Positions 21,980 through 63,336 of a stretch of 64,000 bases of DNA are shown piece by piece. Each line of letters opens with the position of its first letter. Position 1 is the first letter of the stretch. This stretch comes from Siphonodentalium dalli (taxonomy: Eukaryota; Mollusca; Scaphopoda; Gadilida; Siphonodentaliidae): positions 193,012,369 to 193,076,368 of the forward strand of contig CP136061.1 in NCBI GenBank assembly GCA_032622095.1, given 5' to 3'. The notes beneath the pieces were generated by a model that had not been told where the DNA came from, searched no databases, and saw nothing but the letters and a program-made list of their open reading frames with translations. The translations under genes and the position numbers were made by a program.

Positions 21980-22297
21980 TGTGGGCCTCGGTGGCTCAAT
22001 CGGTTAGGGGTACAACTCCAAGCCATTTCGCCCTCCAGCGCTGGCGATAAGGGTTCAAATCCACATGTTTCCATCGTGGACTTTGTAACTCTAAATCGTT
22101 ATCTGGTGGAGTTACCAGTTACTCGCCGATGGCTGGTGGTTTGCCGCACATGGTTGATGAGTTTATCAGCCATTGAAATCACTGTTAGATTAGTCGCAAG
22201 TGTGCGGATTTCCTCCACCACTAAAACTGGCAATGTCGTGATATGGCCTTAGTTGCTAAAGCGACAATAAATCCCAATCAATCAATCAATCAATCAA
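21980..22297 (+). mobile_element. tRNA-derived SINE with 13-bp target duplication
   Basis: The head has polymerase III boxes: A-box TGGCTCAATCGG near 21992 and B-box GGGTTCAAATCC near 22050. A middle part follows with GATTTCCTCCACCA, of the kind seen in mollusc SINEs. The tail is (AATC)n. TCATATCTCTTTT flanks both sides (21967-21979 and 22298-22310). The 3' copy directly precedes CAG of a splice acceptor. Confidence 0.85.
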
Positions 22298-22313
22298 TCA
22301 TATCTCTTTTCAG

Positions 22314-22348
22314 TGGTTGGAACATCACTTTCAACTTCTTGGACGGAG
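22314..22348 (+). CDS. GRAMD4: Putative GRAMD4-like exon directly after a SINE
   Basis: Bounded by TCTCTTTTCAG and GTGAGG. Read with two carry-in bases it gives VGTSLSTSWTE and joins in phase to ESEDKDMGV of the next exon. It is short and not in a conserved part, so it could be skipped or spurious. Confidence 0.5.
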
Positions 22349-25300
22349 GTGAGGAAACGCAGGTTAGAATCTCAATTCAGCCCAAACGAGATATGGCGAA
22401 ATGACGTCTTTCGCGCCCAATGCGGCTGATATATGGCGCAATAACTGGATTTCGCGCCCAATGCGACTGAGATATGGCGCAATAACTGGCTTTCGCGCCC
22501 AACGCGACTGAGATATGGTGAAATAAATGGCGTTCGCGCCCAAATGCGGCTGTTGATTCGTGCCCAATGCGTCAGTTGCCTGATAGCATGCAAATTAGTC
22601 CTCGCCTTAAACATCTTGATATTTATTGATATTTGACGGATAGCGAATATGAAGCAATCACATTTGAAGCAATCATGCTGAGTCAGTGCCTCCATGAATC
22701 TGATATAGATTAATATAATGATCATCTATACCAGCCCAGAGTCTTGGGCATATCGATCTTACTCGTAAAAAGTCGTTTATGGTTTCCAATAACGTATACT
22801 ACTCAGTTTTATTGAAAATTCAAACCTGGAGGCAGTAATGCAGTTCGTGTATATGATGTAGAGATGCATGATGTTCAAAAAAGTTTTCCTTTGATCAACA
22901 ATTACGAGAGCAACATAATTAGAACCAATTATTGAATGTCTATTAAAGGGGTACTGTACACAGAGATAGGCGATTTTTTTATTTACTCCCATTGAAATAA
23001 CTTTCAAGTTAGATTGTGTTCGTGTTATATGAGTTTCGTATAAACCTAATTTAGCGAAGAAAATATTGATCTTGGAAACAAAAATATTACGATTTCAAAC
23101 TACGCGCCATGGTTTGACCTTCACCGGAGAAGACGCAGGTCGCAGGAAGAACCGGAAGTTCATTGCTCACAGTTTCGATTAATGCCTTAAATCTCTTCCA
23201 TCGAACAATCTCACTCCCTATAAAAATACTTGACGCTTTATGACTATTGTTTCTTTCTCCTTTTTTTCCGAATCGGTTGTAACGGGCCTTCCTTTTTCAG
23301 GTAACATGTTTTGTTTGCAACTCAATAATGTTCGCGAACGGCCGTCGATAAAAGACACGCAACAGCTGCGATTTCAAGAACGGTAACTCGTAATGGCATA
23401 ATTCTCCATTTTATGACTCCAGCCATCATAAATTATTTTATATTAAATAATTCAATGTTACTTTTACGATAGCCTGTTAACCGGAACTTTTTCAGTAGAC
23501 ATCGTCGACTCGAATTAGTTATTTTATAATATAATATTCATATTAGATCGCTATTGTCACCGGGAATTTATTGAAATTGGGGTACAGTACCCCTTTAAGC
23601 TGTTAATTTGACCACAATACGACGTGTGTTGCTTTTGCAGGAGTCAGAAGATAAAGACATGGGCGTGTCGGATAAATTCAATTTGGTTCTGCATGTAGCG
23701 AGAAAAGCACAGGTTAGTTTGCTATATCACATGAAACCCCTATTAATTATATCATTGAAAAAAAAATCGTTACTCGAGCCAATTTGGGAGGCTAAAGGTA
23801 CTCAACCCGTAAAGAGGGTCCCCATCTCAACAGATTACAACAACAACAATCCGATCGGAGGGTCCTATATTACTATTTCTTTGGCTTTGGGGGTAAAAAA
23901 TATTTGATTCGAGTCGAGGAACCCATCAAACAAAGCTCAGAGTTATTAGATATTGATTTTTTAAATTTGTTATAAACTCGAGATCAGTACTACTAACTGC
24001 CGTAATCTGCTCTGGATGTGTTCTCCAAATCTATTCAAACAGACAAGGATGGATAACTCTAAAATCAAGTGGTAATTTTAACTCAATTTTGACTGAGTTC
24101 TGGGCCAGATAGTATTCCCGATAATGAAAAATAATAGATTTCTAAAATCGATATCTAACAAATCTGAGCTTTGATGGGTGACTTCCTCGACTCGAATCAA
24201 ATATTTTTGACCCCCGAAGCCATTGAAATAGTAATTGAGAGGAGTTTTATCGGGTTGAGTACCTTTAATCTATAGCTGGGCAAGTTCGTCAGTTTGAAAA
24301 CTGTTAAAATCCTTGAATTGTTGAAATATCAGTCTAAGCAACATGTGGAGTCACACCGATAGTGTCTAAATTAATGCGTACTCTGTGATTTCGACTATAA
24401 ATCATGTGGGATAGTGAAGGAGAGAACTGTTGACATACTGGTTTACGGTTGTCGCACGAGAGCAAATTCCGACGATAGGTTCGTTCTTCTTACCTGGTAT
24501 TATTGCGAGTGTAAATACAAATATATAGATATATAATACGATATATCACGCACTTGTCGACACACTGTCATCCCGATAAGGACTGCATTTCTGTCAGAAA
24601 AACTACCAAAAAAAGAACATCCTCATTTGGTTTTTGTCAACTGATTGTTTGTATTCATACTTTACGCTCAATACAAACGTTTCGTAAACGAAATATAGAA
24701 ACACAAATAGAAAGTTCAAATATGGAATATTTGTTTTAATATTTAGAGCATTATTATTTCTATATTTTAGAATACTCTGGGTGCTGCAGCTGATGCATTG
24801 GAAAAGATAAAAAGGTAAGAAGAATGCTTTCATTAAAACCAAATCACTATCAGATAGGGGATATACTATATCAGTTATTTTTCCATAATTGGATACATGC
24901 ATGTAGTGTCCATTATAGTTCTATAGTTTTCGACTTGTTTTACCAGAGTTCTTACTTTGACCTTTTTTCAAGTTTCAGATTCTTCATAAGTTTGACATAA
25001 GCACTGATGTGTGTTATGATGTATTCAATCAAAGACAGGATCTTTACGTTGAATAGGACTTTTTGAAACTAGTAATAGTATTGGTAACAATTGTTGCTAT
25101 GTCCCTCACTATAACATTGTACTATTTCATCCAAAAAAGGTAACACGTGCACGTATCATTTATATTGAATTCTGGAACATTTAGATTCGTTCTAGGTGCT
25201 TGTATATAGCCGAAATATAATAGCAAGAGATCCAAGATGCACGTGGGATGGGTTAAATTGGGTTTCAACGATTTATTTGTGCTCTCTTTCGGTTGCAGCC

Positions 25301-28300
25301 TTTTGACGTGGCGATACTCCCCAGCGACGAAAAAACTGTTCATATCTATACTTATTGGCTGTGTGATGACGTGCATTTTCGACATTTCGTCTTTGTGCTG
25401 TGCAGCTGGTAAGTAAATACATTTAAAGGCCCAGATAATTTTTGAACCCTCAGATAATTTTATATAACATATATGTCATATTATATACCATTTGAAAGAG
25501 GAAACTCCAAAACATTGTATTATCAACTTATTCGGTGTAATAAACTTGTTGTTTTTGTTGAGATATCGACTTGGGATCTGTAATTAAGTTTCATTATTTT
25601 CAATGGAAGGGGAATAACTCTATATCTTAAAATATAGAGTTATTCCCCTTCCATTGAAAATTCATCTTTAGTTTGAAATCTGTTGCATTCTGGGAGTATA
25701 AAAGGAGATGGTCCCATAAATGGCCGGATTTAGTGTACAGTCTCCCATTAAGGAGTAAATGTTTACAATTGTGAATAGTTCCGATGTTGTGTTTTCTGAA
25801 ACGGTTCGATCAACATGTCTTGAATTTTCCATTATAGTAATCGTAGAACTACATTCTTTCAATTCATGGGAAAAGTGCCTGTGTAATTACTTATCATTTG
25901 CCCCCCTGAAATAAGTACCTAGTGTGTCTTTAGTCGATTCAGGCATCTAATGTGTATGATTTGTGCCATTGTGTTGATTGTATATGCAGTGGAGTGATAT
26001 TCCCGCTTAAAATTAACCATCTCGCTATCCCCCCCCCCCCACCCGTAAAACTGACACGGGCGGTGTTCGTTGCAGAAATATTTATATTTGTTAAAATCGC
26101 CATTAACAGAAGGAACACCAAAATATATACAGTTCCGCTCATATGCCAAATATAATCAGCGCGTAAATAATATATTGTCGTCAAGACGTACGATGGTGTA
26201 CGTAAACAAGAGACTGCTCATGTTACAGAAGTTGTGCTTCTGTTTACATAACACATCACAATTCTATTGGTTAACCACACAAAACTGATATAAACGCTCT
26301 TTATTATTTCCATATCAGGAAAACAGTAACAAATAATGCTCTTTATGTTTACCGTATCCGAATCTAAACAAAAGCCAGGAAACGTAACGTTTTTTTGCAT
26401 TTGTTTACATAACAAAGGGGAAGAAATTGACAATAACATACTGTTTATGCCATATTTCGGATTGGCATAAGAACAAGGTCTGTCTATATCTTACTATTCC
26501 TTCTGTTTATGGCGAGTTTTGATGGAGGTGAATATTTTAACAGCATATCCACCGCCAACGCCACCCGTATCTTTAAACCACATGTTTGTCTTACAATACT
26601 CCTACCCTACAGACTGCATGACGTGTTTGTTTTACAATACTCCTACCCTACAGACTACATTACGTGTTTGGCTTACAATACTCCTACCCTACATACTACA
26701 TTACGTGTTTGTCTTACAATACTTCTACCCTACAGACTACATTACGTGTTTGTCTTACAATACTTCTACCCTACAGACTACATTACGTGTTTGTCTTACA
26801 ATACTCCTACCCTACAAACTACATTACGTGTTTCTCTAAGACTCGGTTCGCTGTGTCCACAAAACTAACGTGAAACCAGGAAAGTTCTGTATATAATCTT
26901 ATTTTCTTCCAGGTTTATATCTGTGTATTCAAGTATTTGTGATCGACTACTTCTACAGACGATATCCCAGGCTGAGGGAGAAATATGACGGAGCACATAT
27001 CATGTGGAAAAACCTACCCACGGATTCACAGTACGAAAAACGATTCCACCAGCGGGAGATAGACAAAGTGAGGAGTGCTTTATATAACCACTAAGTTTAG
27101 ACTATGTTATAGCCAGGCCCATGCAGATACACCTAAGGTTGCAGTACATAATTTCACGGGCTGTAGGAGGTCTGAAAAATAGAAAAATAAGTATCTGGGG
27201 GGCATAACAGCCAGTGTAGCCTGTGTTAAATGTGTATTTACTGGTTTGAAGGTTTAATTATTTTACAAAACTGGGAAAGTTCTCAAAAAAGTTAAAAATT
27301 TAGAAACGCAACAGATTTTCGTATTCAGTGGAGGCCAACTCTGTGTTATTGGTTACATGCAGGAAAATAGCCCGATATCTCTCCCCTGAATTCGGTCATC
27401 TGGGCTCGCAAGACATTTTTTTCAAATTGATACAATAACTTTTTTTATATTTCATATATTTCTCAGCTCTATCATAGCTTTATCAGGTGGAAGAAGCTTA
27501 TTTACTGACATTCGCTCTATCATGGTCTGTTTTTGGGTTGAAAATGGTCAATTTGAGTAAAACAAATGGGTAAAATTGAACGTTTTGTGTGTGCTAACCA
27601 AGGGGCATAATTTAATAACAAACTGTACGAAGACAAATGCTTACACATAAAATTTAACATGCTTGGTGGGACCTATGCCAAAAGATACTAGCTCAGCATT
27701 GATTTGAAGTACATTACCCCCTCCCAGGTTGGCAAAATTGCTGGAAATCGTGTACTGCCTAAGAGAGTAGTGTAACGAAGGTCACGCGAGTCGGGTCCGC
27801 ATGGGGGCAGAAAGTAACTAGTTAATGACTCTATGCATGATACTTATATTTGGTCGTGGCTCCTGGTCTAAGAACCACGTATAGTTCACACTTTACAATG
27901 TTTCACAGATTGAATGTAACAAAATTGTGTTGGTTGAAAAGTGTTGAACCTCCCCATGTAAATTCACATCCCTGCTTCATTCTACGCTCCTGTTTTGTGC
28001 AGTCTCTTTTCTCAATTTTAGCATATTGTAGCGAGAACAGCGTCGGGACTCGCGGAAAAAGGAAGTGATGTCACAGGGGACGACAAATCGTTTTGTGAAC
28101 TATTTTCACTGCCGCTTGCTGAGGCTCCATTATCGGGTTCGTATATAGAACATAATTATTGCGCTACCATTGCTGTTGGAAATTCCCAATCTAATGCCCC
28201 ACATGTCGTTCAAAATTTTCCAACTGATGATCATTTCAGTCTAAAACTTTGACTGAATGTAGAAAATATTCGAATCTTGGCTCCAAAAAATCTAATTATA

Positions 28301-31300
28301 CACTAGATATTAATTGGTGGGAAAAGTAACCCTTTCTACTAAAGGGATGCTCCCATTCTGTTATAAAAGCCTACATTGGAATGGTCTATTCTTCATCTTG
28401 AAGAGTTTTCATGAAAAATAAGCAGACAACTGATGATAAAAGTGCAGGAGGAGTTCAATTTATTGGAGGGAAATGTAATAACTACTCATCAATGAGTATT
28501 TAATGTAGAAATGGTTAAACTATCTGAACAACCTCAGCCTATTGTCGAACTGAATTGTCAGCTGCTCAAAGTCAGGCTTAAAATATTGAGGGCCTGTTTC
28601 CCTTTTCAGAATGTCCATGCATGTATGTGAACCACCACGTGTATTTTATTCAATTCAGGTTGGAATGGCGGCCGCCGATGTACATTAATTAACAGAGACA
28701 AGTCCATCACAGCAGCGTTCAAGAACGGCAAGCTCTACCTAACCAGAAGGTCCGTATTACCTATCCTTATTTAATAAAGCTCTATATATTAAAGCTCTAC
28801 CTAACCAGAAGGTCCGTATTACCTATCCTTATTTAATAAAGCTCTATATATTAAAGCTCTACCTAACCAGAAGGTCCGTATTACCTATCCTTATTTAATA
28901 AAGCTTTATATATTAAAGCTCTACCTAACCAGAAGGTCCGTATTACCTATCCTTATTTAATAAAGCTCTATATATTAAAGGGGTACCGTACGCCAAATGT
29001 TGTTGTTGGTTTCTATAGTCTCCGAGTCGGAGAATAAGGTAACAATTTTTTCATTATTTGAAAGTCTGTTGAGTACGAAGTAGTGTTACGGATGACAAAT
29101 TTACCGGAATGCAAAAATACAAATTGTCGTTGTCGAGTAATTTTTGTACAGTTTTCAACCAAATGAATCAAATAAAAGTTATATTATAGGCATACTAGTC
29201 CCATATAATCATTTAAGTTATTGTATCGTCGCTAGTCAGTGAGTGGCTTGAGTGTTCTCCCCGTATATATCATCATAATATTTTAAGCGATCGTGTGTGC
29301 GATCGGTTTAACAATCCAGTATCCCTCAATTACTTTGTTTGATTACGGAAATTCGTAATTTAAAGGTACTCAACCCGATAAAACTCCTCTCAATTACTAT
29401 TTCAATGGCTTCGGGGGTCAAAAATATTTGATTCGAGTCGAGGAAGTCACCCACCAAAGCTCAGATTTGTTAGATATCGATTTTAGAAATCTATTATTTT
29501 TCATTATCGGGAATACTATCTGGCCCAGAACTCAGTCAAAATTGCGTTAAAATTACCACTTGATTTTAGAGTTATTCATCCTTGTCTGTTTGAATAGATT
29601 TGGAGTACACATCCAGAGCAGATTACGGCAGTTATTAGTACTGATCTCGAGAACATAACAAATTTGAAAAATCAATATCTAATAACTCTGAGCTTTGTTT
29701 GATGGGTTCCTCGACTCGAATAAAATATTTTTCACCCCAAAGCCAAAGAAATAGTAATATAGGACCCTCTGATCGGATTGTTGTTGTTGGAATCTGTTGA
29801 GATGGGGACCCTCTTTACGGGTTGAGTACCTTTAATTGGCGCCATTTTATGTCTCCAGTCATAAATTCAATTTATATCAAATTATTAACTTTTCAATTAT
29901 TAAATTTTAAGATAGCCTGTTAACCTGAGCGTTTACAGAATACATCTACGACTCAAATTACTTATGTTTCTATATATTATCGATATTAGATCGTTGTTGT
30001 CACCGGAAATTTAATGAAAATGACGTACAGTACCCCTTTAAAGCTCTACATAACCAGAAGGTCCGTATTGCATATCCTTATTAAATAAAGCTCTATATAT
30101 TAAAGCTCTATATACCTGTACCAGTAGTTCGGTATTCCCTGTACGTATTATAAAGTTATACCTATAACAGTTGTTCGGTATTCCATATATATAAGTATTA
30201 TAAAGTTCTACATACCATTATTTCGGCATTTCCTATAAGTATTATACAGTTCACGCTCAGTGAAGCAAGCACATTTGAAGCAATACAATGCACACTCATA
30301 CTGAGTCCGTGTCTCCATAAATCTGATATTACATGTGTGTGTATACCAGTAGATCGGTATTGCCAATAGTATTATAACGTTCAACAGTTCAACCTGTAAC
30401 CAGAACGTCCGTACTTCGTAAAGGCTATTTGCCAGTCCGTTTTTATTAGAGAGCTATTTATCACATAATTAACCCACAAAACCAGCTTCATAATTATTGG
30501 TAAGACACACGTGTAATATTAGCGCGTGCGATGACGTCACGCCATTATTTAAATCAACCTCGTCCACTAAATTCTATTTGAGCCTCGGTAAACCTTGGCT
30601 CAAATCGAATTTAGTGAACTCGGTTGATAAATTCCGTATAAAATAGAAAATCATGTGAGATCCTCTATATGCCTGGAGTTCCGGACCGAAGATGCTGGCA
30701 TCCAGAGATCACAGGCCCGGGACACCAACTCCAAGACTGCCTCCTGTTCCATGAAGAGTGGGAAGGGGCCTCCCAAGAAGAAGACGCCTACCAGAAAAAG
30801 AAGGGACGCCGCCAGACGGGCGAAATGGAAGAAGAAGAAGGGGATGACTGTTGATCTGACAGTCATCCCCTCCCCGTGTGGTTCAGCCGACGTCCAGTGT
30901 CACAGCGGAAGGTCGGAGTTGTCTGAGAGACGTCCAGACGACCCGACCTGCATGGAGACAGGCGACATCGCACGGGCTAGCAGGGACTCCGTTGATCTGC
31001 CGGAGGTCCCTGCTGTCGTCACGAAGTCAGGCGGAGACAGGGACGCGGATACCACCCCCGATGTCCCTGCCGCCAGCTTCGACGTGGAGATGGAAACACC
31101 ACCCAGCCATTCTCCACAAGGGGCGGAATCTACCATCACCGCCCCTCCGACGCCGAGGTATGAAGAGAGGCCGGCGTCGTCCATCACCAAAGAACGAATG
31201 GAAAAAGAACGAGAAAGGATCAAGACAGCGATTGTAACACACCACGCAGCAGGAACGACTTACCATCTCACCAAATACGAATTCTTCCTGCTGCGTGATC

Positions 31301-34300
31301 GCCAGCTCTACTTGCATCGAGATAAAACTGAGAGAACATCTGGGACAGTAACAGTCAATCCAACACAGACATATGGCAAGTTCAAACTAGCCTATTCAAA
31401 GCATCCACGACCACCAGAAAAAAGAAAATGATCACCACAAAGAATCTCTAAATTGCTATCTTTTTTTCATTTTTTTATTCTGATTTCTCCAATAAAAGCA
31501 ATATCATGAGGGATTAAGGAAAGGGCCCTTCGGCCCTTTCGACAATCCCGGGGCTATATAGCTACCCCAAACAACCCAATTAAAAAAAAAAAATCCTCTA
31601 TTTATTATATAAAAGAAGTCCATATGTTACTTATATCGTCAAGATCCATCAGAATGTCCGCATTGCTTATACATGAAAATAAAGAAAGTCCGTATCAATT
31701 ATGTGTTGAACGTTGAAAGCAGTTTATATGTACATGTGGGTGGAATAATTCACCAAGTTTGTCTGACCAATGCAAATGATAGCTTCCGACATCTTGGCCT
31801 TCTTCAGCAATGATTTATTCATTTGTTGACATGTTCTTTGTCTATTACAGGTAAAACTTTCTATCACTAAATTCAGCAAGTCGTTTTGAGGAAAATAACA
31901 TATGTATATATATATAGTACTTGTATTCGTTATAGATAGATTTTTTATTGCTTGTTTATTGGCAAAGCCAACAGTTAAGTTAGAACATGCAATAACATAT
32001 ATACATACTATATACACAAGGCACCCATAACATATAAGTCATACCAATAGCAATATATACACAGCATACACAATCACATATTATCATATTGTAATGTTGT
32101 AACCTTTTTGTGATAATTTTATAAATATGCTTACTCTTTTAAGAAGGCTCTTTTCAGAAGGCTCAAATATTCAATTGACAGTAAACAATGACATTTATTT
32201 CTGTTAGGATTCTCCCAGTAATATTTGTTGATGTAAGTTTTGCGTAAATCTTGTAACTTTTGATCATAAAGTGATATTCGTCGCAAGGACTGTTTTCACA
32301 TAAAACACTCCGTAAGTTGTCTGTAGAATTTATTGTTTCTTTTGTCCATCTATTTTTTTCTTCTGGTAATTTATGATTAGTTGTTCTGCTTTTCAATAGG
32401 TAGTTAGACAAATGAGATGGCAAATAAACTAAATAGCGACTCATTTTTATGGACTGCTTTAGGTCTCTGACCCCCATGCATCACACGATAATGCATGTTG
32501 TGTAATTACTACAGCGTGGGTTTAAATTGATGCTTGCCGATCGTAAATCCCTTTAAATACCAATGTTGCGCCAGAAGATACAACATGCGAATGACAACCG
32601 TAAGAGCGAGATACTGACACCTATATATAGTACGATTGTGAACTTTTTAGTCCATAAATCACAATAATATAAAGATATATAAACCTCGGCCAATAATTGT
32701 GTCTTTAAATTCCAGTTTTCTGTGTTTCGAGCGGTCTAAAACACCATCGACGAAAAACGTAACCATACCATTATCTGACATAAGGAAATGCGAGAAGGTA
32801 TGTACTTTAATGTTATTCAAATATCAATATCATTCTATTTGGAACAAACCATTCTACTTTAATTCCACATTATTTCACACATATTCCCATGGTGTCTTCG
32901 AATCCACGGCCCTGTTCGTGCTATAACGAGAAAACCAGGGGTGTATACGATAAAAGATAAAAATAGTAATTTACAAGATGGTAAACATTAAAGGTATCCA
33001 ATCCGATTCGATGGTCCCATCTCATCAGATTCCAACAACAATAACAAATATTTTTGAAATGCCGCTTCAGTTATCAGAATCGATTAATTGCCCAAACATA
33101 ATGCTAACCACAGTCAACTATAGTATAAACTTGCCCAAAAACCTGTTATTTATCAACATTTCGTTCAAATATCTGACACAAAAAAAGTCACTTGATTTTA
33201 GAGTTATCCATCTTCATCCGCTTTTGGTCCGAGACCGTCTTCTTGTCGATTGTTTACTGGGCCACTAATAATTATCGGTGGTGAAAAATAATAAAATAAA
33301 ATAATTAAACAAATCGATACCTGATCACTCAGCTTTGATTGGTGGATTCCTCAACTCGAATCAAATATTTTTTACCCCCGAAGCCAAGGAAATAGTAATT
33401 TGCTAGCGTTAATTCGGATTATGGATATTTAAGTCAATGGTTTATAGCACTAGGCCGCTTCTATTGATAGTGTGTGGAGGAAAAGTATTACTAATAAGAA
33501 TCCAACCGTAAGAAAGCACATGTCACATGTAGTATTTTAGTACACGAATCTACGAAAGTGCATTATGGTCATCTGAAACACCACTGCACCCCCAAATATA
33601 CAAATACACAATTCGTTTATTTTATTTATTACGACTTGTAAATTTTTCTACCAGTCGTTATAACGACTTTTACAACTTATTATAACGAGTTGCCGGAATT
33701 AAGTCGTTATAATGACTTGCAAGTTGTAATAACGAGTTGTTTGCAGTCGTTATAACGTATTGGAGGTCGTTATAACGAGTTGATGGAAGTCAAGTCGTTA
33801 TAACGAATTGTGTATTTATATATTTGGAGGTGCGTTGGTGCTTCGGATAGCCCTAATGCGCTTTCGTTCGAATTAGTTCTCTGCGATTCGAACAGCAAAC
33901 ACTGGGAACGAACGGGCAAATATAACGTTACAGTGTTCCTGTTTGTTCTCGCTGTTCGGTTTTGGTAACACTGCGTTTTGCAAGCAACCATAAGACGTTA
34001 TTATATAAGTTTTCCATGTATTCAAATCGGCAGATGAAGTCTGACACACCACCATGCATATAGCAGCCTGTAGCGTTTAGCCATGCACTATTGCGATACT
34101 TTATGTATTTAGTCAAACACTCAATATGGAATTATAGTACTCTGTTGAAAAAAAATGTCGAAGCTACTGTCCCGAAAATTAGCAACATCATAATACGAAA
34201 GCATTTAATGGCGAAAATATAGCTAAGGCAGCCGTGCGGTTAATGTATATGTATAACGGTATTCATTTTTGCATTATCTGGCGAATAGTCGAAACAGTAT

Positions 34301-37022
34301 GTCAGCGTGTAGTGTTACCAATTAACACATGGAAGCGAAAAAATTTACATATCAAACAAAGGCTGCCACTGGCAAATTTGGTTGGCATTTTTTTCAGACG
34401 GCAATCTACTTAAGTAATGCACGTGCGCGGCCGTTTACTATACGAACAGTAAGATTTCTGTAAGTCCATAAGTTAGGCTAGAACTGACATTACAATTTGC
34501 AAGACATTACACTATTAGAAAATGTCCATCCTCAAACGGTACAAAGTTCCGGAAATTTTCTACCGGCACACAGTCCCGTAAACTAAAGGAACATTTACCA
34601 GTGTCTTTACGGCCCTATATATGTCCCGTATGAATACAGAACTTGGTTCCATATATAGTGGTACAAAACATATGGCCGCAATGAAATGGTACAATTTTTC
34701 CATAACCCTTACGGTAGGTAATGCCGGCAGAAATGTTCCGGAACTTTGTACCGTTTGAGAACGGAATTACTTTAACAGTGTAGACTTCAAGTTTCTGAGA
34801 AGAATCAATCGAGCATTCATTCGTGACATTTCATGTATTTACTACGCGATGCATGCAACAATTGAATACACATACTCTACAAGAAAACCATAGTCAGAAA
34901 CAAATGGTAACGCCCTCATGATCATAATATTAGGCATATACATAAATTATAATATAAAATATATTGATTTCATGAATGCACCAACTCAGTATTCCGTTAA
35001 AACAACTAATACTCCAAATTATTAGAACAACTACGGCACAATATTATCATTGCTGCTGGTTTCTCATTCACCACACCAAAATGCCTCTAAATGTGGACCA
35101 ACAATATACTAATCGGATTAAATACAGACCCGATACTTCGCAATACGACTTTTAGTCTATATTCAAACTGAGACACTTCATCGGCAATGTTAGCTGTTAT
35201 ATTAAGCATTGTGTTCCCGCAATAAAATATTCAATAGTGGCCCAGCCATTGTTCACACATAAATAGCAATTAACGGGGTCATAAAAGTTACATACTGAAA
35301 CAATGAGAGATCCGCGAATATACATCCGCGAATACATACATCCTGCAAAAAGTCTAACTGGTACGCAATATAGCGAGTACATTTTAAATCACATTCCCTA
35401 AAATAACTCGCATCGTGTGAAAACCAAAATATTTTGTTATGCGAGATATCCCCGTAGCTCCATTGACACGGCGAGATCATCGTAGCAGTAAACACCCATA
35501 GGGCGTAATAATGCCTAAATGTATCAATGTGCATTTGATTTTGCCAGGATTTGCATGTCTTAGGCGCATGGTACGAGATGTGCAATATACATGTACATGC
35601 AATCATTGATTTTCCAGGCCAAACCCTACGCATGGGTTCCTGGAGCTGGGATGTCGATCGAAATTGCTATGTCGGGGAGTGATAAGGTTTGTTATACGAG
35701 CGAATTAACCCTTTCTGTGCTAAATATCCATTGACGAGTAGTTCCCATAGGAAATTTCAGATAATTAGTTTAACAAACGGCCATAGTTAAACTTACTATC
35801 GAATCTACCACCACTGAAAAGGAATCCTTCTGCGCTTGTATCATCATTCTATTGCAGACTGGAGATACATGTTGTGGTTTGAGTCCGTACATTTTTATTC
35901 ATTTAATTGATTCTTCCATCGGTTATAAAAGAATACATTGGAATGGTCTATTATTCATACGGATGGGTGTTAAGGATATATTAGCAGGCGACAGACAGAT
36001 ATAAAGTGCAGAGGGAATCATATTAATTGGTGGGAAACGTTAAAAAAAACGGCCAAAGAACCTTTGTTGAACTTATTATCTGAACATTTCATAAGGGATA
36101 GCTACACTCGTCCAATTACTATTTAGTGAAAAAAGTGTTAAATATTAATTGCATTAGTTATCGATAATAAATTATTAAAATTTAACAATATGTAATAGTT
36201 ATACAGTAACACATGAAGTAACCCCGGGTTTGACAAACTGATAAAGGTAAAAGTACTGTTGTATAATACAGTTTTACAATTCTTCAAGCTATCTGCTCTG
36301 GCAGATATCTTTAGAATAGACATTTCTTTCTCGTTAATTGGGGAATTCCACGTTGTAAAGAAAGAGTATTGTTTTTTCCTCTCCTTGGAATTCGTTCATC
36401 AATCACTTGGTGAAGACGTGCATCGCGATTGTGATTGTATAGACATGTCTTAAGTAAGGGTTAGAGCACAAGCATTGTTCTTTACCAGAATCAATCGAGT
36501 CGAAGACGAGATTTATTCTGGTAAAGAACTATTTTCGTGCTCTGACCGACTTAGAGCACAATTGATCACACATAATGCAATCAACTGGAAATGTGCCTGA
36601 GCGTACGTGTTTTGACCACGACGCACAATCCGTGCGCTGGCCGCGACGGGACACAACAGCCGGTTAACCACCCCATGCAACAACGTGATTAACATGCACT
36701 GATCGACGTTGAATGTGAATAGATATGTCCGAAACAACACGGACTGGCCCTACTTTAAAGCACCCGTGCGATTTGTCTGTTATGAGTTGGGATAATCACC
36801 GAACTATTCCTTCGCCAGCATTGGGAATTGGTGTGCTTTTCCAAAAATCAGGGAACGATTGTAATATGGGATTGTGCTCTAAAGTGATTTATTTCTTTTT
36901 CTTTACAGACATATATGTTTGCTGCACTTATTAACAGGGACGAAGCCTTCGACGGTATTATCCAAGCGGGGCGAAAGACAAACCTACAATGGGCCGATCC
37001 AGAATTATCTCATGCGAGTTAA
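22314..37022 (+). CDS. GRAMD4: GRAMD4-like protein, C-terminal ten exons
   Basis: Exons: 22314-22348, 23641-23712, 24771-24814, 25299-25408, 26913-27067, 28022-28136, 28659-28749, 32716-32797, 35618-35686, 36909-37022 (TAA). All junctions are GT-AG and in phase; about 295 residues are visible. In order they give: VLHVARKAQ-NTLGAAADALEKIK, as in the segment before the GRAMD4 membrane region; a hydrophobic hairpin-like stretch (about 63-104); YPRLREKYDGAHIMWKNLPTD, very like vertebrate GRAMD4; and a GRAM domain (about 160-280). The vertebrate protein is a membrane-associated death-promoting factor acting at mitochondria/ER. GRAM domains bind membrane lipids or proteins. The N-terminal half is missing and may lie upstream of the window, in which case the DUF4806 unit would sit in one of its introns. 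The 22314 exon is less certain. Confidence 0.88.
22372..22580. repeat. 41-bp minisatellite
   Basis: GCGCCCAATGCG recurs at 22413, 22454, 22495 and 22536 (period 41), with partial units at both edges. It lies just inside the intron after the 22314 exon. Confidence 0.8.
22947..23594. mobile_element. T3 element, TTAA-flanked
   Basis: Ends AGGGGTACTGTAC and GTACAGTACCCCT with TTAA at 22943-22946 and 23595-23598. 648 bp, non-coding. Its right end lies 46 bp upstream of the 23641 exon. A second copy is at 28979-30037. Confidence 0.8.
23796..24264. mobile_element. T1 MITE, long asymmetric subtype
   Basis: Left end AGGTACTCAACCCG followed by TAAAGAGGGTCCCCATCTC; right end CGGGTTGAGTACCT followed by TTAA (24265-24268). 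The left target copy is altered to CTAA. Its two arms differ, unlike the symmetrical short subtype. Confidence 0.8.
25299..27067 (+). CDS. GRAMD4: GRAMD4-like membrane-segment exons
   Basis: Two exons (25299-25408 and 26913-27067). The first encodes LLTWRYSPATKKLFISILIG and a Cys-rich hydrophobic run; the second completes it with GLYLCIQVFVIDYFYRR and continues PRLREKYDGAHIMWKNLP. The hydrophobic stretch is long enough for two membrane passes or a re-entrant loop. Sequence and order agree with vertebrate GRAMD4. Confidence 0.85.
25422..25745. mobile_element. Foldback-containing repeat cluster in intron 4
   Basis: Begins TTTAAAGGCCCAGATAA. Includes a near-perfect 64-bp palindrome at 25597-25660 (CAATGGAAGGGGAATAACTC and complement). 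It runs into GTATAAAAGGAGATGGTCCC, the arm of the element that also hosts the LINE at 37.7-42.1 kb. Exact borders unresolved. Confidence 0.55.
25746..26575. other. Intron sequence without recognised features
   Basis: A C-run at about 26030-26040 and short chance frames on both strands. No conserved coding signal or paired ends seen. Confidence 0.45.
26580..26838. repeat. 41-bp minisatellite
   Basis: Six copies of a unit with TGTTTGTCTTACAATACTCC and CTACCCTACAGACTACATTA. The unit length is not a multiple of three and it lacks stops, so all plus frames are open here; this is not a gene. It ends about 75 bp before the 26913 exon. Confidence 0.9.
27068..28021. other. Intron 5 of the GRAMD4-like gene
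   Basis: No element with clear ends or exon seen. The acceptor at its end is TCAATTTTAG. Confidence 0.5.
28022..37022 (+). CDS. GRAMD4: GRAMD4-like GRAM-domain exons
   Basis: Five exons encode the GRAM fold: FCELFSLPLAEAPLSGW, then GGRRCTLINRDKSITAAF with NGKLYLT, then SFLCFERSK with NVTIPLSDIRKCEK, then AKPYAWVPGAGMSIEIAMSG, and last TYMFAALINRDEAFDGII. The Phe-Leu-Cys-Phe strand and the INRDEAF helix are hallmark positions. The protein ends DPELSHAS. Introns here are large (up to 4 kb) and transposon-rich. Confidence 0.88.
28320..28520. repeat. Dispersed repeat R, copy 1
   Basis: Contains AACCCTTTCTACTAAAGGG and ATTGGAATGGTCTATT followed by a GATAAAAGTGCAG segment. Related copies lie at 35705-36130 and about 42940-43160. 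Borders unresolved. Confidence 0.5.
28731..28978 (+). repeat. Tandem 62-bp array duplicating an exon end and its splice donor
   Basis: Four copies with essentially one substitution. Copy 1 is the last 19 bases of the 28659-28749 exon (AGCTCTACCTAACCAGAAG) plus 43 bases of intron, beginning GTCCGT. Copies 2-4 repeat both. Each therefore presents the same AAG|GTCCGT donor. The array is interrupted by the T3 element at 28979 and decayed copies continue after it. Confidence 0.92.
28979..30037. mobile_element. T3 element containing a nested T1 MITE
   Basis: Ends AGGGGTACCGTACG and CGTACAGTACCCCT, TTAA at 28975-28978 and 30038-30041. The extra length over the other T3 copy comes largely from T1 inserted at 29364. 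It sits inside the 62-bp array. Confidence 0.85.
29364..29831. mobile_element. T1 MITE nested in T3
   Basis: AGGTACTCAACCCG to CGGGTTGAGTACCT, TTAA at 29360-29363 and 29832-29835. It is the long subtype in the opposite orientation to the copy at 23796. Confidence 0.87.
30042..30440 (+). repeat. Decayed continuation of the 62-bp array
   Basis: One fairly good unit (AGCTCTACATAACCAGAAGG, then TCCGTATTGC) is followed by progressively diverged ones with CCAGTAGTTCGGTATTCC, AACAGTTGTTCGGTATTCC and AACCAGAACGTCCGTA. Weak echoes (AAGTCCGTATC) recur to about 31700. Confidence 0.7.
30554..30624. repeat. Hairpin
   Basis: Arms TCCACTAAATTCTATTTGAGC and an imperfect complement around CTCGGTAAACCTT. Similar in style to the hairpins at 10.5-10.7 kb. 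Confidence 0.6.
30655..31431 (+). CDS. Unidentified basic protein fragment in the retroposed sequence
   Basis: Open for 258 codons with the first ATG just upstream of the inserted body, so the true protein probably began further 5' in the parent. It has a Lys/Arg-rich stretch (PPKKKTPTRKRRDAARRAKW, about residues 39-60), a Pro/Ser/Thr-rich acidic middle, and a C-terminal part with RIKTAIVTHHAAGTTYHLTK. It ends PRPPEKRK just before the 3' region. This could be a nucleic-acid-binding ORF1 of a LINE, but I do not recognise the family. No intron signals occur inside it. Confidence 0.5.
   Translation: MRSSICLEFRTEDAGIQRSQARDTNSKTASCSMKSGKGPPKKKTPTRKRRDAARRAKWKKKKGMTVDLTVIPSPCGSADVQCHSGRSELSERRPDDPTCMETGDIARASRDSVDLPEVPAVVTKSGGDRDADTTPDVPAASFDVEMETPPSHSPQGAESTITAPPTPRYEERPASSITKERMEKERERIKTAIVTHHAAGTTYHLTKYEFFLLRDRQLYLHRDKTERTSGTVTVNPTQTYGKFKLAYSKHPRPPEKRK
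30669..31592 (+). mobile_element. Retroposed GC-rich sequence with poly(A) and target duplication
   Basis: ATCCTCTAT flanks it at 30660-30668 and 31593-31601, and it ends in an A-run. Base composition is far more GC-rich than the surroundings up to about 31430. Near the 3' end a hairpin AAAGGGCCCTTCGGCCCTTT is followed by CGACAATCCCGGGG. Probably a 5'-truncated non-LTR element or a processed copy. Confidence 0.8.
31602..32715. other. Intron 7 remainder before the 32716 exon
   Basis: AT-rich. Weak traces of the 62-bp array to about 31700; otherwise no recognised element or exon. Confidence 0.45.
32992..33428. mobile_element. T1 MITE, diverged
   Basis: Begins AGGTATCCAATCCGATTCG after TTAA (32988-32991). 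The right end is degraded (CGGATTATGGATAT before TTAA at 33429-33432). It lies 194 bp inside the intron after the 32716-32797 exon. Confidence 0.75.
33579..33840. mobile_element. TIR element filled with TCGTTATAACGA palindromes
   Basis: Ends of about 39 bp (CACCACTGCACCCCCAAATA onward) recur inverted with few mismatches. The interior is seven copies, some imperfect, of the 12-bp palindrome TCGTTATAACGA separated by short spacers. Confidence 0.75.
33841..34509. other. Intron sequence, nothing recognised
   Basis: No exon or paired ends seen in this part of intron 8 of the GRAMD4-like gene. Confidence 0.45.
34510..34780. mobile_element. MITE with CACTRTTA ends, TA-flanked
   Basis: Inverted ends of about 50 bp share TCAAACGGTACAAAGTTCCG; flanking TA at 34508-34509 and 34781-34782. 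Tc1/mariner-like target. Confidence 0.75.
34783..35617. other. Remainder of intron 8
   Basis: No element or exon recognised. Short frames open on the minus strand (35253-35633) overlap the plus-strand exon at 35618 and look like chance. Confidence 0.45.
35705..36130. repeat. Dispersed repeat R, copy 2
   Basis: Opens TTAACCCTTTCTGTGCTAAA and contains ATTGGAATGGTCTATTATTC and TTGAACTTATTATCTGAAC, shared with the copy near 43 kb. The CCCTTT opening after TTAA resembles T2 ends. Confidence 0.55.
36461..36882. mobile_element. MITE ending 25 bp before the last GRAMD4-like exon
   Basis: Inverted ends TTAGAGCACAA and TTGTGCTCTAA. An internal hairpin TTCTTTACCAGAAT...ATTCTGGTAAAGAA lies at about 36479-36529, and another TTAGAGCACAA occurs near 36549. 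Only the T-rich acceptor tract separates its right end from the exon at 36909. Confidence 0.6.
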
Positions 37023-37700
37023 TAGCCATGTTCAGTTACACGTACATGTATCTTGCATCGTGTGTTGCTATTGCCAGCAAAAATAACGTTGTTCACGTGA
37101 CTACTGCAGCTACACGTTTTCAGCACACGGTATAATGTTTTGTATCCATCGTGTAAGGAAAATTGTAGCAAAGTGGAATTATGTGTTCTTCCAATAACCG
37201 AGGAGATGCTCAATGAGCAGTGACCATGCACCATGTGACCACCATGCGACCAATGGGACGATATATACGATTTACCAAACTGACCTTACCCGTGACCGAA
37301 GTGTAGATCGATACTTGTCACACTGAATGCGGATTTCGCTTACACGTTTTACTATAAATACACCGTAATAGTAGCCTTATTTCTATAAATGTGTATAATG
37401 TTTGACGCCATCAAATGAGGTGAATTCTCCCGCTACAGCTAACACTTCTATATAGCAATACCGTTGCAATGCACATGTACGTTGTAATCCGTGTAACTGA
37501 ACCTGGCTGTTGTATGACTTTAGGGAGGTTGGGTGTTGATTTTTTCAACTAACAAGGGCTACTGTTAGACTCGTCCCTGACTCATATGTGAAACACTACG
37601 ACACTATCGCTCTGTGACGTGCCCTCCCATAATAACGACGTCCAAAGCAGAGCGATGGCAAGGTTTAATAGTCCGGGGACCAGTCAAGGCTACTGTACAC
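37023..37700. other. 3' flank of the GRAMD4-like gene
   Basis: No AATAAA in the first 600 bp after the stop. The first occurs near 37758, inside the repeat that hosts the LINE. The poly(A) site is therefore unclear. Confidence 0.4.
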
Positions 37701-38077
37701 TAAATCCGGCCATTTATGGGACCATCTCCTTTTATACTCAACAGAATATATGCAACAAATAAATAAATAGTTTTGGTTATTCAAACCAAATCATCATCAT
37801 TACATACATGTTTGCATACATGTCACCATCCGAACATCACCTGTACATATGTTTTTCATTATTTTTGCATGTTGTTCTCATGTTTTTGCAAGTCCTATTC
37901 ACCTATTGCTATCTCACCAACACCAACTGTTACTCCTTATTTTCAAATCTCCACAGTTGCACTTCATCCGGCGTCAGTGAGTCTCTTTGTGCCCATATAT
38001 CTCACCTCTTGTCATTATGCAGGAACAAAATCACCCACGGCCGCGCGATGTTGTTCTTTGGTGTGCCCGGCAAATAA

Positions 38078-40099
38078 ATGGGTACGTCAGCTATACAGCA
38101 TCGCACGGCCACGGGACTTTTTGATATAAATAAGAAACTAATTTGGCCGTCACAGAGCAAGCATAAACAGAGACATACCACTTTAAGAGGTGTGAGCATA
38201 CGACTTCCATTAATCTTATTGGTTATTTCCATTCTACTTGTGCTGTCCGGTACGGTCCATCCCAACCCAGGCCCAACACATATCGACGGTGCAAGGAATG
38301 TCAATCGAAACAACAAATCAAATAGCCACGATCTGGGCACCCTGACATTATACCATGAAAATATTCGAAGTATTAGAAATAAACTCGACAAAGTAAAAGA
38401 TCTTATCAGTGAATATGATGTTCTATGTTTTACCGAAACACATCTTGATGTCACATACCCCTCTGAAAATTTACTAATAGATGGCTTCAGAACCCCCATC
38501 CGAGAAGATCGTGATCAATATGGCGGTGGTATATGCATATATTTTCCAGAACACTTAGTATACTCCCGTCGGGATGTCCTAGAATTCGATTCGTCCATAA
38601 TGTGGTTCGACATCCACTCGGCAAGATGTCATATCATCTTGGCATTATCATACCGGTCCGATGCGTTATGTGCTACAAATTACTGGAATCTTTTCGACAA
38701 CGCAATTCATGAAGCTCTGGAAATTACACCAAATATGGTCATGCTTGGTGACTTTAACTCTAATATGTTGGACCCCAATTCCAAACTAAGCACAATTATT
38801 GATTATTACTCCATTAGAAATGTGATTAAAACTCCAACAAGAGTTACCGAAGACTCTCAGACCTTACTTGACCCAATTCTTGTATGTGGAGATCTAAGTG
38901 TCCGTGATGCAGATATTATAGACTTCGAAGTATCAGATCACTATGGTGTCTATGCGGCTCTTTCTTACGACAACTCTGCCACCCCATCCTTCCAAAGAAC
39001 TATTTGGAACTACAAACACGCCGACTTCAGTAGGGCTACCTCCTTAATAAATGATATAAATTGGGATAGTCTCCTCCGACCAACGGCGGACGTTGACACA
39101 GCTGTAGCAGTATTTTATGATAAATTCCTTGAAATTATGCACGAAACCATCCCGACCTCGACAGTCACTATTCGAACTAAAGACAAAATCTGGTTCAACT
39201 CAGAAATTCGTCGCGAGCTACGGAAACGCAATAGATTCAGATCGATTGCACTCAAACGTAGTACCGATCTAAACTGGAAAAAATACAAAAAATCACGAAA
39301 TAGAGTAAACAACATGAAAAAACATGAGAAAGCAAAATTCGAAGAACATCTCGATGAAAGAATTAATGACTCGCCATCATCTAGAGATTTTTGGCAAATC
39401 ATCAATTACCTTTTGAATAAGAAGAAAACAAACAAAATACCACCACTTTATTCGGCTAACGGCGAAGTCATAGCAAATGGAGTTTCATACGCCAGCAATG
39501 ACATCGATAAAGCTAGACTTCTGAACGCAAACTTTATCCAAAATTCATCTATAAACGATAAAGGACATCAACTACCAGATTTTCCTCTCAGGTGCGGCAA
39601 TAAACTCACTGATATTCCCATTTCACACGCAGATATTGTTACAGTAATCGAAAACCTCAAAACAAATAAAGCTCAGGGCTACGATGGAATTAATGCTAAA
39701 ATGTTGAAAGGAACGGCAACTGCTGTTGCCACTCCGCTTCTATTACTCTTCAAGAAATCGCTAAATATGGGCAAATTTTCGTCGAACTGGAAGAAAGCTA
39801 ACGTAATACCTATATTTAAAAAAGGAGATCCCGCGGACTGTTTAAATTATCGCCCAATTTCACTTCTTCCTATCCTTGGAAAAGTTTTCGAAAAAACGGT
39901 ACTCAAATATATTAATGTATTCTTCGACGAGAACTGCCTCCTATATCGACACCAATCCGGCTTTACTGAAGGACATAATACAACATATCAACTTCTGGAT
40001 ATGTATCATAACTTATGTCAGAGCCTCGACAACAACTTGCACACCTGTGCTATTTTTTGTGATATCTCAAAGGCGTTCGAGAGGGTCTGCATGGCATAA
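38078..40099 (+). CDS. LINE polyprotein, endonuclease and first part of reverse transcriptase
   Basis: Starts MGTSAIQH. A hydrophobic stretch (about 43-57, LPLILLVISILLVLS) leads into GTVHPNPGP (58-66), the position and ending of 2A-like sequences reported in such elements. It lacks the usual Asp and Glu, so cleavage is doubtful. An apurinic-like endonuclease follows (YHENIRSIRNKLDKV, CFTETHLD, MLGDFNSN, SDHYGVYA). Then come the reverse transcriptase start (NKAQGYDGIN, NWKKANVIPIFKKGD, NYRPISLLP) and CDISKAF. The normal next residues (WHKG) are displaced by an extra TGCA at 40088-40091, so this frame stops at 40097-40099. The element would copy its RNA at nicked chromosomal targets. Confidence 0.9.
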   Translation: MGTSAIQHRTATGLFDINKKLIWPSQSKHKQRHTTLRGVSIRLPLILLVISILLVLSGTVHPNPGPTHIDGARNVNRNNKSNSHDLGTLTLYHENIRSIRNKLDKVKDLISEYDVLCFTETHLDVTYPSENLLIDGFRTPIREDRDQYGGGICIYFPEHLVYSRRDVLEFDSSIMWFDIHSARCHIILALSYRSDALCATNYWNLFDNAIHEALEITPNMVMLGDFNSNMLDPNSKLSTIIDYYSIRNVIKTPTRVTEDSQTLLDPILVCGDLSVRDADIIDFEVSDHYGVYAALSYDNSATPSFQRTIWNYKHADFSRATSLINDINWDSLLRPTADVDTAVAVFYDKFLEIMHETIPTSTVTIRTKDKIWFNSEIRRELRKRNRFRSIALKRSTDLNWKKYKKSRNRVNNMKKHEKAKFEEHLDERINDSPSSRDFWQIINYLLNKKKTNKIPPLYSANGEVIANGVSYASNDIDKARLLNANFIQNSSINDKGHQLPDFPLRCGNKLTDIPISHADIVTVIENLKTNKAQGYDGINAKMLKGTATAVATPLLLLFKKSLNMGKFSSNWKKANVIPIFKKGDPADCLNYRPISLLPILGKVFEKTVLKYINVFFDENCLLYRHQSGFTEGHNTTYQLLDMYHNLCQSLDNNLHTCAIFCDISKAFERVCMA

Positions 40100-41495
40100 G
40101 GGTTTGATACATAAATTAGACAAGTACGGAATTTCTGGTCAGCTGTCCATTTGGTTGGAGGACTATCTTTTTAACAGACAACAAAGAGTCTTGGTGAATA
40201 ATACATACTCCGAGTTCGAATTGGTCCCCGCTGGAGTGCCTCAAGGGTCAATACTCGGACCTCTTCTGTTCCTATCCTACATAAATGATCTCCCGGATAA
40301 CCTTATCTCAACAACTAGAATGTACGCCGACGACACATGCATTATCGCATCTCATTACGACCTGACCATCCTTGAATTCGATCTAAATCAAGACCTAGAA
40401 TCAATATCAAATTGGGCGCGCAAATGGCTGGTAAATTTCAATCCATCGAAAACCAAAGCAATATCTTTCTCGTTATCGGGCAAACAAACGAACCCCACAC
40501 TTATATTCCAAGACCGAAACATCTCTTTCGAAACGTCACATGCACACCTCGGTGTTGAAATTCAATCAAATTTAGACTGGAACGATCACATTAATAATAT
40601 AATTAAAAGAGTTTCGTCCCGCATCTCACAACTAAGAAGATTCAAATACAGCTTAAGTGCAAACACGTTAGAAAAAATTTACAAAACTTACGTTCAGCCA
40701 ATAATGGATTATGCAGATGTAGTTTGGGACTGTGCACCACAATACTGGATGGACAAACTTGAACGTATACACGTGGACGCCGCCAGAATAGTGACCGGGT
40801 TAACCCGCTCTGTCTCCAATACAAATGTTTTACTCGAAGTGGGGTGGTCCAACCTTAGGGAGCGCAGGGAGAAACACCACCTACAAACACTTTTTAAAAT
40901 AACTAACGAAGAAACTCCAGAATATCTCACCCTTCTTCTACCAGCCCGGGCGGCACATGTATCAAACAACCGGTACAACTTTAGACAACCGCGTTTTTTC
41001 TACTCGTACCGCTGGACAACAGCACATTACAGGAAATCATTCTTCCTAAACACAACTCATGAGTGGAATAAGCTCCCTTCGTTTGTCATAGATTCTGAAA
41101 ATATATCCGATTTTAAAACTCACCTAAACATAATCGCCCCTGCTCCAAAACCCTATCCACTTTATAGAACAGGTCATCGGAATGTTAGTGTCAACCATTG
41201 TAAACTCCGAAACTATTGTAGCGACTTAAAGAGTGACATGCAAAATAATCACATAGCTGATAGTCCTAATTGTCAATGTGGTTTTCCGAAGGAGGATGCT
41301 AGTCATTTCTTCTTCCACTGTCCATTGTTCACCAATCAGAGAAGAATATTTTACCACAAACTTGAAACAAATAACTTTCATATAGAAAATATTAAGCATC
41401 TTCTCTGTGGAATCTCTGAAAATGACCACAGAAGAAATATATTGCTATTTCATATTACACAGTCCTACATTAATGCAACTAAACGTTTTGGGTAA
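40092..41495 (+). CDS. LINE polyprotein, rest of reverse transcriptase and C-terminus
   Basis: Continues the same protein in the next frame, from WHKGLIHKLDKYGISGQ. It includes GVPQGSILGPLLF and the catalytic YADD (codons 40323-40334). A thumb and C-terminal region follow, with LDWNDHINNIIKRVSSRISQ and a Cys/His motif (CQCGFPKEDASHFFFHC). It ends NATKRFG. The open frame begins further upstream (39876), but that part overlaps the other frame and is not homologous. Together the two pieces would be about 1,137 residues. Confidence 0.9.
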   Translation, partial: WHKGLIHKLDKYGISGQLSIWLEDYLFNRQQRVLVNNTYSEFELVPAGVPQGSILGPLLFLSYINDLPDNLISTTRMYADDTCIIASHYDLTILEFDLNQDLESISNWARKWLVNFNPSKTKAISFSLSGKQTNPTLIFQDRNISFETSHAHLGVEIQSNLDWNDHINNIIKRVSSRISQLRRFKYSLSANTLEKIYKTYVQPIMDYADVVWDCAPQYWMDKLERIHVDAARIVTGLTRSVSNTNVLLEVGWSNLRERREKHHLQTLFKITNEETPEYLTLLLPARAAHVSNNRYNFRQPRFFYSYRWTTAHYRKSFFLNTTHEWNKLPSFVIDSENISDFKTHLNIIAPAPKPYPLYRTGHRNVSVNHCKLRNYCSDLKSDMQNNHIADSPNCQCGFPKEDASHFFFHCPLFTNQRRIFYHKLETNNFHIENIKHLLCGISENDHRRNILLFHITQSYINATKRFG

Positions 41496-42085
41496 CTTCG
41501 ATCATATATTTTTCTCTGTTATGTCAACCTGTCATTGAAAACAATTAAAAATTTAAATGCCCGGCCTTTTTAGACACAACTTATGACAACGTGAGGGTAA
41601 AACTGGACACAATAAAACTCCACTCATAGCACACTCTGTACAAATATTCACATCTGTTTCCCTGCTTAAACATTCACAATTTCATCCTGCCATCTTGTTT
41701 AAATGTTATGTTATACCTTTTGTGCGGGAGAGGGGCGTCACTAAGTTGACAAAACTTGTGTCCCAATCCCCATGTATATAATTGATATACAATAAAATAT
41801 GTTTAAATCAAAATCAAAAATCAACAAATAAATAAATTTGAGCCATGGATTAGTGCAAAATACACTCATGTGCTCTATGAACGATGCAAACGACATGATA
41901 TTTATAATGAAAATGAATTTATGACTCCAGCCATTTGTTTATTCTGATTATAATTACCATGTTGTTTGCATCGTCCACAGAGCACATCAGTGTATTTTGC
42001 ACTAACCCATGGCTCAAATTCATTCATTTATTGTATATATTCTGTTGAGTATAAAAGGAGATGGTCACACGAATGACCGGATTTA

Positions 42086-59981: not shown

Positions 59982-59984
59982 TTA

Positions 59985-60835
59985 ACATTTTAATTCTTAT
60001 AGTTTAATTCTAACTTAACATTTTAATTCTAACTTAACATTTTAATTCTTATATTTTAATTCTATTTACATTCTATTTACATTCTATTTACATTCTATTT
60101 ACATTCTAGAAATATTCTAGAAACATTCTATTAACTCTAACTTAACATTTTAATTCTTATATTTTAATTCTAACTTTACATTTTAATTCTAACTTGATAT
60201 TTTATATTTTAATTCCAACATTAGACCTTTTTGTAGTAGATTTAAAATATTAAAATGAAACTATTAAGTAAGAATTGAAATATAAAGTTAGAGTTACAAT
60301 TAAAATATAAGAATTAAAATATTAAGTAAGAATTAAAATATGAAGTTATAATTAAAATATCAAGTTATAATTAAAATATCAAGTTAGAATTAAAATATAA
60401 GAATTAAAATGTTAAGTTATGATTAAAAAATTTAAGTATGAATTAAAAGATTAAGTTAGAGCTAATAGAATGATTTCTAGAATGATTCTAGAATGTTTCT
60501 AGAATGTTTCTAGAATGTAAATATAATGTAAATAGAATGTAAATAGAATTAAAATATAAGAATTAAAATGTTAAGTTAGAATTAAAATGTTAAGTTAGAA
60601 TTAAACTATAAGAATTAAAATGTTAAGTTATAATTAAAATTTTAAGTACGAATTAAAAGATTAAGTTAGAGCTAATAGAATGTTTCTAGAATGATTCTAG
60701 AATGATTCTAGAATGTAAATAGAATGTAAATAGAATGTAAATAGAATTAAAATATAAGAATTAAAATGTTAAGTTGGAATTAAAATATAAGAATTAAAAT
60801 GTTAAGTTATAATTAAAATGTGAAGTTAGGATTGT
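59985..60835. repeat. AT-rich array with inverted halves
   Basis: The left part (59985-60235) is built from TTTTAATTCTAACTTAACA, then TTTACATTCTA, then TTCTAGAA. The right part (60240-60835) is the complement, present twice, with (GAATGTAAATA)n and (TTCTAGAATG)n. The halves could form a very long hairpin. Confidence 0.85.
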
Positions 60836-63230: not shown

Positions 63231-63336
63231 GTTTTAGGTACACCCTTCATCGATCATTGGAACCTTTACACTGGTATAGTCTATATTGGTATTTTAGTTA
63301 TTTCCCCCAGGGGCATGTGATCAAGGCTCTATAAAT

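Follow-up and report, generated by a model that had tools for sequence, protein, structure and literature searches.

What follows for a gene when the end of one of its exons, splice donor included, is copied in tandem into the intron behind it, and how does such an array come about? This question is raised by a 62-bp tandem array at the end of a GRAM-domain exon in Siphonodentalium dalli, which we analysed within a stretch of 64,000 nucleotides (the window; positions are those of this stretch unless a contig is named). The array sets five donors, identical over nine bases, in one natural intron, with protein predicted from the first only. Because five donors are identical and one is predicted to be productive, the locus offers a clean natural test of the part that position alone plays in the choice between equal donors, and also of the burden that such an array imposes. 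We consider it moderately probable, taking the evidence jointly, that this is a minisatellite born at an exon boundary, in which donor 1 is productive and the array is a tolerated by-product.

The GRAM exons and their gene

Exon A (28659-28749, + strand, 91 bp) has an acceptor ending ...TTCAATTCAG/ and the donor AAG/GTCCGT (a slash marks the splice boundary), and ends in phase 2 (AG/), while exon B (32716-32797, + strand, 82 bp), with acceptor TTCCAG/ and donor AAG/GTATGT, enters in phase 2 and leaves in phase 0. The codon at their join is split, exon A giving two bases and exon B one, and the product reads ...FKNGKLYLTR-S-FLCFERSKTPSTKNVTIPLSDIRKCEK. A first-pass annotation had assigned exon A to a GRAM domain, and homology indeed identifies it as a real exon: joined in phase, exon A as the first part of the domain and exon B as its continuation match Pfam family PF02893 (GRAM) at 36.3 bits (E 5.4e-9) against a cut-off of 23.6, over a partial domain (profile positions 21-65 of 112). 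On its own, exon B reaches 17.6 bits, with an E-value that is optimistic because this exon was chosen by eye among many downstream frames. For exon A the shuffles are a fair test: when the residues of exon A were shuffled before joining, six of six products fell, to 15.1, 15.1, 15.3, 15.6, 16.0 and 16.9 bits. Exon A therefore contributes approximately 19 bits. No GRAM match was obtained when exon A was extended by a few intron-coded residues (best family GHD, E 0.15), continued into the array or joined to one unrelated peptide from the window. In the GRAM alignment approximately six extra residues are taken in exon A (query 7-57, 51 residues, on the 45 profile positions 21-65), exon B fills positions 39-65 one to one, and the YLT-RSF-LCF spacing at the junction is shared with two other GRAM loci in the genome (L013, YLS-INH-LCF; L012, YLT-THR-VIF).

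How much of a gene surrounds these exons is less evident. Pfam scans of the + strand (three frames, stops read as X) recognised no third exon in 22000-37001 (5000-residue pieces) or, in smaller pieces, in 1-28652, 32800-38801 and 41500-63999; the large pieces alone cover 28653-32799, and 38802-41499, within a LINE, was left out. The only match above its family cut-off was the LINE endonuclease, and the next best was an MptE-like match at 61702-63999 (E 0.0013, 19 bits against a cut-off of 34.6). With no third exon recognised, we know this gene from two exons only, and it may be a remnant. We nonetheless regard it as unlikely that exon A is part of a gene that is dead or untranscribed, with the array no more than an intronic minisatellite within a relic. 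The recognition of two exons only, and of nothing above cut-off in the + strand scans apart from the LINE, would fit such a relic, but such scans have little power for short exons and easily miss exon-sized matches, exons A and B themselves having been missed, and both exons are open, in phase and equipped with acceptors and donors. A regular expression built on the C-terminal part of the GRAM domain hit once, near 47370, and we disbelieved this hit because a stop adjoins it. The LINE itself occupies 38078-41495 and carries endonuclease and reverse transcriptase in two overlapping frames. On the minus strand, an open frame of 359 codons (55749-56828) has a weak BLH_phosphatase match (E 0.0016, 19.2 bits, below the cut-off of 26.1).

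The joined peptide gave no match outside this locus in the genome at E up to 10 (three candidates scored). Three of the four GRAM places in the genome were read, namely those on contigs C4 and C8 and one on C7; the C4 place presumably resembles WBP2 and the C7 place TBC1D9. The joined product also scores 27.3 bits against the Vps36 family (GLUE, PF11605), which is below its GRAM score. We judged a Vps36 identity unlikely, considering that no EAP30 match was found on contig C1 (against one strong match on C7 and four below cut-off on C5, in a search where weak exon matches can be missed) and that the weak matches point to C5, where five of eight PF11605 matches fall. Two weak Vps36-like sets, each of GLUE and EAP30, lie on C5 at 218.69-218.71 Mb and 220.25-220.27 Mb, approximately 1.56 Mb apart, and perhaps reflect a duplication or an unmerged haplotype. 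Sequence searches of the PDB returned no hits for exon A, and for an inexact first version of the join they returned ten chance hits (E 0.55-0.92).

Five identical donors and an in-frame stop

Tandem Repeats Finder (TRF) places the array at 28730-28980, with a period of 62, 4.0 copies and 98% matches. Comparison of the units resolved four of 62 bp, U1-U4 (28730-28977, + strand), of which U1 overlaps the end of exon A, and a single mismatch among them, a C-to-T change at unit position 53 of U3, so that U1, U2 and U4 are identical. The first-pass claim that four such units each hold the last 19 bases of the exon and the same donor is confirmed by both analyses: bases 28731-28749 of exon A recur in every unit and are followed by GTCCGT. 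A fifth 62-bp unit, U5 (30041-30102, + strand), lies further downstream and differs from U1 at four of 62 sites with its donor intact. The donor AAG/GTCCGT is thus found in four of four adjoining units and in U5, its GT beginning at 28750 (donor 1, 28750-28751, + strand), 28812, 28874, 28936 and 30061. All five units also hold AATAAA, at 28773-28778 in U1 (+ strand) and beginning at 28835, 28897, 28959 and 30084 in the others. As RNA, the exon plus array shows no unusual fold, 98 of 100 shuffles folding equally well or better, which makes a structural role for the array RNA unlikely, and Rfam yielded no matches at gathering score.

From positions -3 to +6 the donors of U1-U5 are identical in sequence and therefore equal in matrix score. 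On a donor matrix, AAG/GTCCGT reaches 5.08 bits (matrix maximum 12.6), with weak points at +3 C and +4 C, and ranks 13 (tied) of the 246 GTs between 28640 and 33000; across both strands of the window 4.9% of 7214 GT sites reach this score. The donor of exon B reaches 9.48 bits and ranks first of the 246, by which comparison the array donor is moderate to weak. We take donor 1 to be the one that makes protein, because its in-phase join with exon B gives the GRAM match; it would be the donor used in working mRNA, since only that join provides the GRAM reading frame and spacing.

What would the later donors produce? The first-pass annotation had predicted that each would lengthen the exon by 62 bases per unit and shift the frame. 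The lengths hold, and the effect was understated, as the added sequence brings in stops and truncation whatever the number of units. Translation of the extended exons shows an in-frame TAATAA (28772-28777, + strand) that is met with any later donor or with intron retention: exons of 153, 215 and 277 bases (one, two and three added units) all read ...LYLTRRSVLPILI and then TAATAA, and the extension to the U5 donor meets the same stops. An addition of three units (186 nt) returns to frame, but past the stops. Every longer form is therefore truncated, since TAATAA lies in frame within the first added unit. Messages from these donors would stop there after TRRSVLPILI and, by inference, would probably be removed by nonsense-mediated decay. 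The winner among equal donors depends on position and on bound factors, and Eperon and colleagues reportedly studied the choice between equal donors in vitro (work cited in PMC8724738). Some use of the later donors is to be expected, given that they match donor 1 at every base from -3 to +6.

A transposon within the array and a proposed order of events

Between U4 and U5 lies a DNA transposon of 1,059 bp (28979-30037) that splits the array and has TTAA at both ends (28975-28978 and 30038-30041). Its terminal inverted repeats match at 15 of 17 positions, and the inverted arms span 28975-28995 and 30021-30041. The same element is present at C3:88220931-88221996 (96%) and at C1:240719491-240720553 (95.8% over the first 385 bases), with TTAA at both ends of each, and a further member of the family is found on C2 (84%); by locus, TTAA stands at both ends of the window copy, L007 and L009, and was seen at one end only of L008. 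With inverted terminal repeats, TTAA at both ends and several copies, the element is a TTAA-target DNA transposon, which we take to be piggyBac-like and non-autonomous. Inside it is a shorter inverted-repeat element with TTAA-bearing ends (29360-29835, inverted repeat I4), of which 36 other places at 98-99% were found among the best 40 scored of 4732 candidates, indicating that it belongs to a young and abundant family.

When the transposon was removed by script, the empty site read ...TATATATTAAAGCTCTACATAACC..., in register, and TRF then reported one run of 6.0 copies of 62. Since this site is continuous in register at period 62, U5 must formerly have adjoined U4. The same result bears on whether the number of units is an artefact of assembly, which we consider very improbable: four near-identical units, seen in an assembly rather than in reads, might invite this suspicion, but U5 lies in register past the transposon, so that a 62-bp array existed independently of U1-U4, and 248 bp is short relative to long reads. 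Having overlooked the transposon inside the array, the first-pass annotation misread the extent of the latter; its statement that decayed units continue for more than 1 kb is wrong as worded, 1,059 bp of the 1.45 kb after U4 being inserted transposon.

Past the transposon, the array takes up again at 30041 and runs to about 30420, and approximately five older units appear, less certainly, to lie beyond U5. U6-U8 (30103-30248, + strand, approximately 46-51 bp each; TRF on the empty site, period 46, 75% matches) are without GT at the donor position. They are followed by an inserted dispersed repeat fragment of approximately 80 bp (30249-30329, approximately query 208-288) that matches dozens of places at 84-89% among the best 40 scored of 1289 candidates, and then by U9 and U10 (30330-30425, + strand). 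Scored against U1, U6 to U10 reach 41, 27, 29, 29 and 36, respectively, so that U6 and U10 exceed the maximum of 604 background windows (30) and U7-U9 do not. Their own shuffles reached these scores in 31 of 1000 cases for U7, 8 of 1000 for U8 and none of 1000 for U6, U9 and U10; U7-U9 are recognised by their place and by their similarity to U6, U7 matching it at 85% over 33 bases. Among the ten recognised units the donor is unchanged in five (U1-U5), GT is absent from four (U6-U9), and one (U10) has kept a GT, preceded by AAC, a poor exon end. U6, U7 and U9 share changes, which may mean that these few units descend from an older subfamily already lacking GT and did not decay independently.

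Where did the array come from? A DNA search of the genome with the whole array found this locus only, in two pieces (two candidates), in a search that skips common words and from which very decayed copies could escape. A 24-mer allowed up to three mismatches gave five hits in 2.23 Gb, all at this locus, against 126 + 125 for the reversed control. The exon share of each unit codes for KLYLTR, part of the GRAM motif. Since KLYLTR fits this motif and neither search detected the array at another locus, we infer that the exon is the likely origin and that the array was probably seeded from it. We regard as exceedingly improbable the converse, in which a satellite already present invaded the exon and displaced its end; the older units do lie deeper in the intron, as that course would have it, but an array known from one locus and an exon end that fits the GRAM motif, unlike chance satellite, argue against it. 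Upstream of exon A, the best unit-like sequence scored 22 against a background maximum of 30 (604 windows). At 26583-26837, 1.8 kb upstream of exon A, is a separate array of a 41-bp unit (6.2 copies, 94%); its units each hold TCCTACCCTACAG/ACT, which by eye is acceptor-like, all three forward frames are mostly open, and the first approximately 40 bases before it match dozens of places elsewhere.

Given an origin in the exon, the following order of events appears plausible. Tandem duplication would have carried the last 19-20 coding bases of the GRAM exon, together with the donor and approximately 42 intron bases, into the intron; the units of an earlier wave (U6-U10) would have decayed, with donor GT mostly lost; the transposon would then have landed on TTAA at a unit junction, separating U5 from U1-U4; and U1-U4 would have been duplicated afresh or homogenised after the insertion. 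That U1-U4 differ at one site in one unit, against the four differences of U5, fits their being younger than U5 and postdating the insertion, on small numbers (four substitutions). The first-pass view of an old array recently homogenised beside the exon is thus upheld as to age, older units lying further on and the youngest adjoining the exon, and homogenisation fits, with recent duplication fitting equally. The transposon insertion serves as a relative time mark, which allows us to follow step by step how a minisatellite grew from the edge of an exon.

Known systems and possible roles

Among the matches listed, the nearest parallels in the literature are the papers on IFI6 and on AGGT duplication. 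In human IFI6 (6-16), the repeat units are 12 bp long, span the exon end and keep the frame, unlike the 62-bp units here, which break the frame and bring in a stop. Two downstream units of the IFI6 repeat act as donors, so that three mRNA species arise (PMC4526556), and the present locus is alike in that tandem units supply donors at an exon end. Indeed, the array crosses the exon end and carries a donor in every adjoining unit, as in minisatellites of the IFI6 kind; unlike IFI6, it is split by a transposon, and its donors beyond the first are candidate donors from sequence. Donor-supplying minisatellites are therefore already known as a kind, to which this array adds a frame-breaking unit. 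For ABCA7, an intronic VNTR that affects splicing is described (PMC5954066); both loci have an intronic tandem repeat with a possible effect on splicing, but a donor is present here in each of U1-U5, whereas we found no mention of donors in the ABCA7 units.

The gain of introns through tandem duplication of an AGGT segment is treated in a review (PMC3443670) and in a potato case (PMC4974935). Both that process and this locus have tandem copies of an AG/GT junction at an exon edge; here, in contrast, the copies lie inside an existing intron and their acceptor context is weak by eye. On the model in the review (PMC3443670), each unit, with its ...CCAGAAG/GTCCGT and hence an AG/GT junction per 62 bp, could act as a mini-intron or recursive splice point, removal from GT to the next AG taking 62 nt and restoring the same junction. 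We find this hardly credible, as the unit shows by eye neither a well-placed branch site nor a good polypyrimidine tract, splicing would first encounter a CAG three bases upstream, and nothing observed requires such a mechanism.

Might the array instead regulate its gene? Conceivably, the number of units could act as a working rheostat, setting the share of transcripts lost to donors 2-5 or to premature polyadenylation and hence the level of GRAM protein. Every 62-bp unit has both a donor and AATAAA, in-frame stops stand in the first added unit, and the transposon places a run of TGTTGTTGTTGG 34-45 bases past the last AATAAA that precedes it, an arrangement that might suit a poly(A) site, so that premature polyadenylation at the AATAAA copies is possible. 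There is also precedent, in another system, for control of mRNA abundance by a choice between two donors (PMC4222953). Nevertheless, the motifs of a seed unit are necessarily carried into all of its copies, and AATAAA is frequent throughout the window, with 74 occurrences on the + strand (1.16 per kb; GC 37%), and we consider such a rheostat quite unlikely. Copy number in minisatellites usually varies among individuals. A variable poison-donor array is, in our estimate, decidedly unlikely: in this reading every unit would pair a donor with a poly(A) hexamer downstream of an in-frame stop, and unit number, which can change by unequal crossing over, would tune the amount of functional GRAM protein. 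We favour the tolerated by-product, which would most likely cost some splicing efficiency and have no dedicated function.

A promoter scan, run with a bacterial consensus, gave no sites. A further, AT-rich array at 60242-60830 consists of mixed 11-, 19- and 33-bp units, of which the 33-bp unit is, by eye, approximately the reverse complement of that at 59982-60190.
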